From: Vulcanisaeta souniana JCM 11219
Lineage (GTDB): Archaea; Thermoproteota; Thermoprotei; Thermoproteales; Thermocladiaceae
Assembly (NCBI RefSeq): GCF_026000775.1
Contig: NZ_AP026830.1
Location: forward strand, 1,139,056-1,203,055
DNA: 64,000 nt
Reading direction: 5' to 3'
Shown here: positions 14,997 through 18,135 of the stretch, in pieces
Position numbering within the stretch: the stretch's first letter is position 1
How the letters are laid out: the number at the start of each line of letters is the position of its first letter
The notes under the pieces: model-generated
The model's input: the letters and a program-made list of their open reading frames with translations, nothing else
What the model was told of the DNA's origin: nothing
The model's database searches: none
Translations under genes and position numbers: made by a program

Positions 14997-15719
14997 ATGG
15001 AGATTATACAATTAATAGGTACATCAAGGGAGGAAGTGGACAGGGTGATGGAAGTTATTGAGTGGGCGCTGGAGGAACTTGGGGTGCCGAGCAATGACAT
15101 TATGGTTTACGTAACTGATGATCATAATAAGGTAAGGGAGGCATTGGGTATGAGTACCGTCACCCATGAGGAATGGCCTATAAAGTGTATCAATGTTGGT
15201 ATTGACGAACCCGTAGTCATATCAGTAATACCAAGCAAACTACTTCAGTTGGAGGAGAGCCGCATGCGGGTTATACTCCTGCGTGAGGTGGCCCTCATAA
15301 AGGTTATGAGGGATCCCGTACTATCAAGCACTTGGAGCATACCACAGAGTATAGATGATCAGGTGGTGCATAGGGTCTCCCTGGCCCTACTTAAGAGGAC
15401 CATTGACCTAGTAATAGCGCAATCACAGTCATTAATCCAGCACCTAATTAATGCATTTAATGGTGATGAGATAATGAGATTATTGTCAGCTTGCCAACCA
15501 ACAGTTGACTGTGCAATAACTGTATTGGCCCTAGACGTACCATTAAGTATAGAGGCCTCGGGAAACGTCGGCTTAGGTAGATCACTATGGAATAACTTAA
15601 CCAGGGGTTTAGATAATGATTTCACCAGGAGGTATGAGGACTTTAGGGACTTTGTTAGGAATAACTTTAATGTGGAGAATACGTATAATTATTTGCTAAT
15701 GATGTTCAGGAGATCATAA
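14997..15719 (+). CDS. Hypothetical protein
   Basis: A 240-residue mixed alpha/beta protein without recognisable motifs. The N-terminal ~80 residues alternate strands and helices (MEIIQLIGTSREEVDRVMEV), while residues ~85-160 are helical and include the LREVALIK segment, which lacks the H-E-x-x-H of a metalloprotease. The 3' end overlaps the convergent phosphoglycolate phosphatase gene by 6 nt. A TATA-like ACTTAAATAGG is ~40 nt upstream, with an ATG that begins an intact frame. Probably an archaeal lineage-specific gene. Confidence 0.55.
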   Translation: MEIIQLIGTSREEVDRVMEVIEWALEELGVPSNDIMVYVTDDHNKVREALGMSTVTHEEWPIKCINVGIDEPVVISVIPSKLLQLEESRMRVILLREVALIKVMRDPVLSSTWSIPQSIDDQVVHRVSLALLKRTIDLVIAQSQSLIQHLINAFNGDEIMRLLSACQPTVDCAITVLALDVPLSIEASGNVGLGRSLWNNLTRGLDNDFTRRYEDFRDFVRNNFNVENTYNYLLMMFRRS

Positions 15720-16448: not shown

Positions 16449-17117
16449 TTACCTTTGCATTACGATAATCTCCCTAGGCCTAACCTCATCACGCCACTTA
16501 AGATTCATTAACGCGTTCTCATCATGGTAATAAACCCAATCAGTAACCCACCTACCCGTTATTAGGTAAATCACCAGTGCTGTGGCAACCAACTCGTGCC
16601 TACTCAGGGCTTTAATAAGTACCGCAATCGTTAATGCCATGGTAGCCGATACTCCAATGAGAATGTGGGGAAGGAAATCAAGCAGTACGTTGTTAAAGGG
16701 TATTGCCAACGCTATGAGAAATATTAATGGAGAAATAATAAGAAACAGCGGCTCGCCCCTCTTCGGCGCTAATTTAAATAGTAATGATGGCGGCCGTTGA
16801 TAGAGAACGTGATGGAAAACCTCATGCATAAGAACTCTACCGAGGAAAGTTCTTGGCCCATTCATAAGTTCGGTAGAGACGTATATAATTGAGGTTAACC
16901 GATGCGGTACGTATACCGCATACGCCCCGAATAACTCAGTCATTGTGTCGGACCTTATGACCTTCACTGGGTCATAATCATGATTAATTAATGACTTGTT
17001 TATTCTATTAATAAATGATTGAAAATCTATGATACCCATTTCAAAATCGTAAAGTGCCAGGCGTAATTCATTAATGATATCCTCGTACTTCCCCACCCAG
17101 TCGGGTTTTCCCTTCAT
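16449..17117 (-). CDS. Membrane protein with HExxH metallopeptidase-like motif
   Basis: 222 residues. A zinc-metallopeptidase motif HEVFHHVLY (H-E-x-x-H, at residues ~98-106) sits inside a helix that follows FLGRVLM. Two membrane helices come after it: LFLIISPLIFLIALAIPF and ILIGVSATMALTIAVLIK. A second conserved patch, SRHELVATALVIY, near residue 170 could give the third zinc ligand (Glu or His), as in M48- and M56-type membrane peptidases. The N-terminal region is helical and soluble. No protease activity is shown. It shares orientation with the phosphatase downstream, 27 nt away. Confidence 0.6.
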   Translation of the reverse strand: MKGKPDWVGKYEDIINELRLALYDFEMGIIDFQSFINRINKSLINHDYDPVKVIRSDTMTELFGAYAVYVPHRLTSIIYVSTELMNGPRTFLGRVLMHEVFHHVLYQRPPSLLFKLAPKRGEPLFLIISPLIFLIALAIPFNNVLLDFLPHILIGVSATMALTIAVLIKALSRHELVATALVIYLITGRWVTDWVYYHDENALMNLKWRDEVRPREIIVMQR

Positions 17118-17183: not shown

Positions 17184-18062
17184 CTACTTAGACTTTTTTA
17201 AAACCAGCATGTAATGATAAGGAGAGACCTCTACGTAGTCCTCCCTCACAAAATCTCCACTGAAGTAATGCTCAACTTCCTCAGGGCTCAGCTTAAACGG
17301 GGGTCCAAACACCACACCCTCCTTAAATTCAATAATTAACAACTTACCGCCAGGTCTCAGGATCCTACTTATCTCCCTAACAGCTGCTTCCTTATCCTCA
17401 ATATCATGAAATACGTTGGACATAAAGGCCAAGTCAACACTATTACTTGGTATTGATGTACTTGTAACGTCCTCATTAAGTATGGTCACATTGCTGTAAT
17501 TACTGAACTTCCTACGAACATCCTCGATCGCCACCTCATCAACGTCAACGCAGTAGAGCCTTGATGCATAATCCTTGAAGAAGTTGCAGTAATAGCCATC
17601 GCCGCATCCTAAGTCAGCAATAACCATGCCATTACTTACATAGGGTTTTAGGAAGTCGTACTTCGTGAAATCCTCGGCATGCCTGTGGTGACTACCGTGA
17701 TGGCCATGGCCACCATGATGCTCACCATGTGTCGGTCCCTGCGCCTCAGTTAATTTGCCCTCGATAAAGGCCTTGATTGCATCCTCAACACGGCCTTCGA
17801 ATATGTATATCTTGATTCCCCTTTCAACGGCCCATCTATAGCCTGGAGGACCTATTTCGGAGAGTATTACCGTGTTAACTCCACGATCAAGCAAACTCCT
17901 CAACATGAACACACCCCTTACCTGCTGTGCATACCTCGCTGGGTTTTCATATCGCTCAATTAACTTGTAGTTGCCACTATCCTCAACCTCAATTATCCAC
18001 ACCTCGTCTCCCTCACCAGGTCCAGAGACAAAGCCATTACTTACGGATATTGCTATTCTCAT
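17184..18062 (-). CDS. Fusion of NifX/NifB-type cofactor-binding domain, His-rich linker and SAM methyltransferase
   Basis: 292 residues in three parts. Residues 1-100 resemble the dinitrogenase iron-molybdenum cofactor family (RIAISVSNGFVSGPGEGDEV, then VILSEIGPPGYRWAVERGIK). Residues ~105-130 are a His/Gly linker (HGEHHGGHGHHGSHHRHAED) with 11 His in 20 residues. Residues ~135-292 are a class I SAM methyltransferase: motif I VIADLGCGDGYYCNF, acidic CVDVDEVAI, EDVTSTSIPSNSVDLAFMSN and ILRPGGKLLIIEFKEG. The linker may bind a metal such as Ni, Co or Fe. The methyl acceptor is unknown. Only the architecture is seen; a role in handling a metal or metalloid is inferred. Confidence 0.8.
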   Translation of the reverse strand: MRIAISVSNGFVSGPGEGDEVWIIEVEDSGNYKLIERYENPARYAQQVRGVFMLRSLLDRGVNTVILSEIGPPGYRWAVERGIKIYIFEGRVEDAIKAFIEGKLTEAQGPTHGEHHGGHGHHGSHHRHAEDFTKYDFLKPYVSNGMVIADLGCGDGYYCNFFKDYASRLYCVDVDEVAIEDVRRKFSNYSNVTILNEDVTSTSIPSNSVDLAFMSNVFHDIEDKEAAVREISRILRPGGKLLIIEFKEGVVFGPPFKLSPEEVEHYFSGDFVREDYVEVSPYHYMLVLKKSK

Positions 18063-18135
18063 ATCCGATATCGGACTCGATTACTTATTTAAAAAGGTTA
18101 CGCGCGACTCCGCGAAACAAGTAACAAGTAGGTTT

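Follow-up and report, generated by a model that had tools for sequence, protein, structure and literature searches.

Gene and domain architecture

What can a NifX-like domain do in an archaeon that has no nitrogenase, and why is it joined there to a methyltransferase? The question is raised by one gene of Vulcanisaeta souniana JCM 11219, whose genome is a single contig of 2,432,148 bases and is 99.7% complete. The window, which is the whole stretch of 64,000 nucleotides that was analysed, contains on its minus strand a complete and intact open reading frame of 292 amino acids (17184..18062, ATG at 18062), with a NifX-like domain, a histidine tract and a class I SAM methyltransferase in one chain. 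The NifX-like domain covers residues 1-110 (17733..18062, minus strand) and matches Nitro_FeMo-Co PF02579 at residues 16-100 (40.4 bits, cut-off 26.3). The methyltransferase domain covers residues 136-292 (17187..17657, minus strand) and matches Methyltransf_11 PF08241 at residues 150-243 (79.1 bits, cut-off 21.2). Both Pfam domains are above their cut-offs, and the architecture proposed in the first-pass annotation, a NifX-like domain followed by a His-rich linker and a SAM methyltransferase, was confirmed.

A TATA-like box, TTTTTAAA, was found by consensus match only at 18088..18095 on the minus strand, 26-33 nt upstream of the ATG; at this distance a leaderless archaeal transcript would be expected, which supports the start codon. 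In the predicted structure of the fusion (pTM 0.56) residues 113-133 of the linker are disordered with pLDDT under 50, and the arrangement of the domains is not fixed by the model.

NifX-like domain

The closest solved structure of the NifX-like half is 2re2, the uncharacterised Thermoplasma acidophilum protein Ta1041, both by sequence (E 2.6e-28) and by fold comparison (TM 0.87-0.88). The two are about 50% identical over residues 1-113, share GPGE and P-T-H, and 2re2 has a short His tail; it differs in being stand-alone, without methyltransferase. Profile matches to 1eo1 and 2wfb were also obtained. The half belongs to the same fold family as the PF02579 proteins (NifX/NafY/NifB C-terminal domain, MTH1175, the orange protein ORP) and passes the Pfam cut-off, but it lacks their His-Phe-Gly and the His of the following loop. 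GPGE at residues 14-17 (18012..18023, minus strand) stands at the His-Phe-Gly position in 11 of 11 aligned members of the subfamily, whereas the canonical PF02579 proteins used for comparison (L086, L089, L090) all have Pro-His-Phe-Gly; the downstream His found in canonical proteins is absent from the subfamily as well. Other residues invariant among the 11 were N40-P41-A42, R49-G50, E69 and P110-T111-H112.

The His of the HFG motif is a ligand in NifX/NafY. As this residue is missing, binding of a FeMo-co-type cluster through the canonical His would be unlikely, and the iron-molybdenum cofactor binding suggested in the first-pass annotation is weakened by the loss of this motif and of the downstream His. 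A different ligand at the same site is possible. The half further differs from the nitrogenase cofactor carriers NifX/NafY in its genomic setting, since nitrogenase genes, already reported absent nearby, are absent genome-wide: no match to the nitrogenase component protein family PF00148 was found in this 99.7% complete genome. A second PF02579 protein of 152 amino acids in the same genome (L043:5322-5780; G000:C1:1942351-1942689) belongs to another subfamily and has a GHFAHA motif.

Histidine tract

The His tract, HGEHHGGHGHHGSHHRH, covers residues 112-128 (17679..17729, minus strand), starts at the His of the P-T-H motif and contains 9 His in 17 residues, a density that did not arise once when the protein was shuffled 20,000 times. 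The count of 11 His in 20 residues given before was too high, as the best 20-mer has 9. Among the fusions the linker varies, with 3-9 His in 17-24 residues, and such variable length and His number fits a compositional metal-binding or flexible tract.

Where they stand alone, in Sulfolobaceae, Caldivirga and Thermoplasma, most of the NifX-like proteins carry a His-rich tail after a C-terminal P-T-H, and in the sampled stand-alone methyltransferases the N-terminal heads contain 13.5% His, against 1.7% in the body. Because tails and heads of this kind occur unfused, the linker can be read as tail plus head. Homologues that lack the linker and act on a plain metabolite had been named as a case against the first-pass reading; unfused homologues do exist, but they bear His-rich ends at the site of the join. 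From these features metal binding by the NifX-like/His part is plausible and, overall, judged likely.

Methyltransferase domain

Motif I of the methyltransferase is intact (ADLGCG, residues 149-154). The closest structure is 3i9f, an uncharacterised putative type 11 methyltransferase from Saccharolobus solfataricus (E 6.3e-31 by sequence, TM 0.81 by fold), which has the same class I fold with FHD and GPP motifs and is 35% identical over this half; it differs in being stand-alone, without the NifX-like half. Tree position and the common FHD and GPP motifs place the domain with the stand-alone archaeal enzymes of 3i9f type. H219 and G253-P254 were identical in 58 of 58 aligned homologues and P255 in 98%, while in the core methyltransferase family C153 and C171 were invariant and C159 was 93% conserved.

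For the METHYLTRANSFERASE half, no NCBIfam equivalog cut-off was reached. The best NCBIfam match, the DVU_1556 family methyltransferase NF045667, gave 45 bits and missed the cut-off of 155. ArsM arsenite methyltransferases are likewise class I SAM methyltransferases, but the protein is far below the cut-offs of their models (33 bits against 263), so this identity was rejected, and the metal or metalloid methylation put forward in the first-pass annotation found no support in the arsenite methyltransferase model.

Distribution and origin of the fusion

Full-length fusions were present in 8 Vulcanisaeta and 6 Thermoproteus genomes with 49-87% identity, and with about 50% identity between the two genera. 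Together with the intact reading frame here, these copies rule out a frameshift or assembly artefact, including a frameshift that joined two genes in this strain only. In three JCM draft genomes (G052, G053 and G055) the reading frame of the fusion was broken, probably by draft errors. Caldivirga (G038) and its relative, the genus g4, encode the halves in two unlinked genes, and in Sulfolobaceae the halves are likewise stand-alone and unlinked.

In the methyltransferase tree every fused copy fell in one clade (support 96/94), which was sister to the stand-alone enzymes of Caldivirga, g4 and Nanopusillus/Nanobsidianus (98/94). By the evidence of this half, the single clade implies one joining event. 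The tree of the NifX-like half recovered no single fusion clade, and one clade was not rejected (p-AU 0.088); its low resolution on this point comes from the NifX-like domain being too short. Vulcanisaeta is in the family of Caldivirga and Thermoproteus is outside of it, so the fusion either passed from one lineage to another or came apart again in Caldivirga. The fusion is real, old and conserved. Our literature search found no paper on Ta1041, 3i9f or the fusion, and as far as this search reached the fusion is undescribed and built from two known, uncharacterised families.

Co-occurrence of the two families

NifX-like members were recognised by a subfamily profile, on which they scored above 140 bits and the next best protein 83, broken copies aside. 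Among 398 Thermoproteota genomes, 36 had both families, one only the NifX-like protein, six only the methyltransferase and 355 neither (Fisher p about 1e-43, a value that ignores shared ancestry). The sole genome with only the NifX-like protein is 67% complete, and every near-complete carrier of this protein also has the methyltransferase. Within this sample the NifX-like subfamily is limited to Vulcanisaeta, Thermoproteus, Caldivirga, g4 and 13 Sulfolobaceae genomes; outside of it, Thermoplasma also holds a member (2re2).

The methyltransferase was found without its partner in several places. Six Sulfolobaceae genomes have it and lack an intact NifX-like gene, and in one of these six (G287) an intact methyltransferase accompanies a NifX-like pseudogene with many stops (L121; G287:C1:1827500-1828600). 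Nanopusillus and Nanobsidianus have a methyltransferase of Caldivirga type and zero PF02579 proteins. As the methyltransferase persists without the NifX-like protein and hardly the reverse, the NifX-like half looks like an accessory.

The Nanopusillus/Nanobsidianus enzymes (L056, L057, L058) nest among the Caldivirga copies in the tree, and they were likely gained by horizontal transfer. Their genes are located a few genes from those for a protein disulfide oxidoreductase, a thioredoxin reductase and an Fe-S assembly protein (PF01883).

Gene neighbourhoods

No neighbour gene was conserved across genera when fusion and stand-alone loci were compared, and in the neighbourhood of the fusion itself no sulfur-metabolism gene and no arsenic or selenium gene was recognised. 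Neighbours of the Vulcanisaeta fusion are psmA, a SprT-like gene and a HAD phosphatase. A link with the proteasome through the divergent psmA was rejected, as this arrangement is specific to Vulcanisaeta. In the window, a 222-amino-acid open reading frame with HEVFHH, downstream of the fusion on the same strand (16449-17117), is conserved in Vulcanisaeta and weakly SprT-like (18.1 bits, below cut-off), and a 240-amino-acid frame with zero Pfam matches (14997-15719) is syntenic across the Vulcanisaeta loci that were read.

A dihydropteroate synthase (DHPS) gene adjoins the fusion in five of the six Thermoproteus genomes, and in L037, L040 and L060 the fusion follows that gene directly or with a 4-nt overlap. 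A general link with DHPS was not retained: Pyrobaculum encodes DHPS but not the fusion, and the DHPS model had no match in any Sulfolobaceae genome although both halves are present there. A link with tetrapyrrole synthesis was also dismissed, as only in g4 does the NifX-like gene have a NAD-binding dehydrogenase and an apparent HemA gene beside it. In three Sulfolobaceae loci (L072, L077 and L080) the stand-alone methyltransferase gene shares its last 4-8 nt with a small SRPBCC-like gene, and one Sulfolobaceae copy adjoins a rhodanese.

Of 15 annotated loci with distant homologues on bacterial and haloarchaeal plasmids, 8 were sulfane-sulfur clusters (rhodanese, TusA, DsrE, SQR-like, TauE and CsoR-type genes), against 1 of 6 for control methyltransferases, a difference that is not significant with this small control (p 0.15). 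On a Geobacillus plasmid (L137:5872-6615) a truncated methyltransferase of the family is in frame with a CsoR/CstR-type regulator domain, as read. In Thermus, a sulfur regulator resembling CstR has been described as controlling a methyltransferase gene (PMC10318464), but that gene could not be tied to this family.

Possible functions of the fusion

The chain thus joins a NifX-like protein with a His-rich tail to a class I SAM methyltransferase with a His-bearing N-terminal arm, and the unfused forms co-occur strongly and are rich in His at the ends that meet in the fusion. We tentatively propose that a metal-binding accessory is here coupled to a methyltransferase for small molecules, which perhaps acts on sulfide or a thiol. 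The NifX-like domain and the His ends would bind a metal ion or a metal-bound ligand, and this dispensable accessory would deliver the metal to the methyltransferase or sense it for the enzyme, the fusion fixing both in one chain. The enzyme would transfer the methyl group from SAM in the ordinary way, its conserved His219 and Gly-Pro-Pro loop lying near the substrate. That substrate might be a small molecule, with sulfide or a low-molecular-weight thiol as the likeliest choice in hosts living with much sulfide; we treat the sulfide/thiol proposal as a lead. A precedent for a sulfide- and thiol-methylating enzyme is human METTL7B (PMC7921093).

Several results stand against this proposal. The difference in sulfur context between homologue and control loci is not significant (8/15 vs 1/6, p 0.15) and such a context is absent at the fusion, the domain lacks the His that serves as canonical metal ligand in the NifX fold, the NifX-like half alone gives no single fusion clade (p-AU 0.088), and the predicted model fixes neither the linker nor the domain arrangement. 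The SRPBCC neighbours in Sulfolobaceae could point to a hydrophobic substrate instead. A larger claim, in which the His-tailed protein of NifX type would present a metal-thiolate or metal-sulfide to a dedicated methyltransferase and so detoxify sulfide or soft metals in acid hot springs, seems improbable to us.

The methyltransferase might instead modify an ordinary metabolite of hydrophobic nature, for example a respiratory quinone or isoprenoid, with the NifX-like domain and His tract as a scaffold or regulatory part that takes no direct part in the chemistry. We consider this possible, if rather doubtful. Models of UbiE/BioC type rank among the highest-scoring general matches, none of which reaches its cut-off, and the SRPBCC gene overlapping the methyltransferase in the three Sulfolobaceae loci is of a polyketide-cyclase-like, hydrophobic-ligand type; however, the SRPBCC link is seen in Sulfolobaceae only, with a Pfam score near the cut-off, and the methyltransferase is kept by Nanopusillus and Nanobsidianus, symbionts which are not known as quinone makers. 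We regard it as unlikely that the His tract holds a metal or metalloid, be it arsenic, selenium, tellurium or a metal-bound cofactor, for the enzyme to methylate. Both partners have His-rich ends, acidic hot springs are rich in metals, and the Cys residues 153, 159 and 171 are invariant in fusions and 93-100% conserved in the core family, all of which is in line with this reading, as are distant homologues near FeoB/FeoC in Methylosinus, near a heavy-metal P-type ATPase in Listeria innocua and fused to a CsoR-type domain in Geobacillus. Against these stand the low score on the arsenite methyltransferase models, the lack of recognised arsenic or selenium genes near the fusion and the chemistry of His, which binds arsenite, selenite and tellurite poorly.

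That the halves were joined neutrally and kept by chance, without functional coupling, has a low probability in our judgement: in Caldivirga and Sulfolobaceae the separate genes do lie unlinked, and several lineages have the methyltransferase but not its partner, yet two genera about 50% identical in this protein have both preserved an intact fusion, and without fusion the two families still co-occur very strongly. Least probable is that the attached NifX-like/His part, or the separate NifX-like protein, is itself the target, with His or Glu methylated and metal binding tuned in this way. This would account for co-occurrence and fusion, and the invariant P-T-H motif lies before the His tract; the methyltransferase nevertheless persists in Nanopusillus/Nanobsidianus and in the Sulfolobaceae genome G151 without any NifX-like protein, and our search found no precedent.

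Meaning for the NifX-like family

Small NifX-like proteins are common in archaea free of nitrogenase, and for one subfamily the fusion and the co-occurrence name this methyltransferase as a likely partner enzyme; a named partner gives a direct route to testing the function of the subfamily. The structures 2re2 and 3i9f, solved without an assigned role, become parts of one proposed system. If the larger claim of a metal-thiolate or metal-sulfide presented to a dedicated methyltransferase, which we hold improbable, were true, such a two-part archaeal methylation system would be a function of the NifX fold outside nitrogenase.
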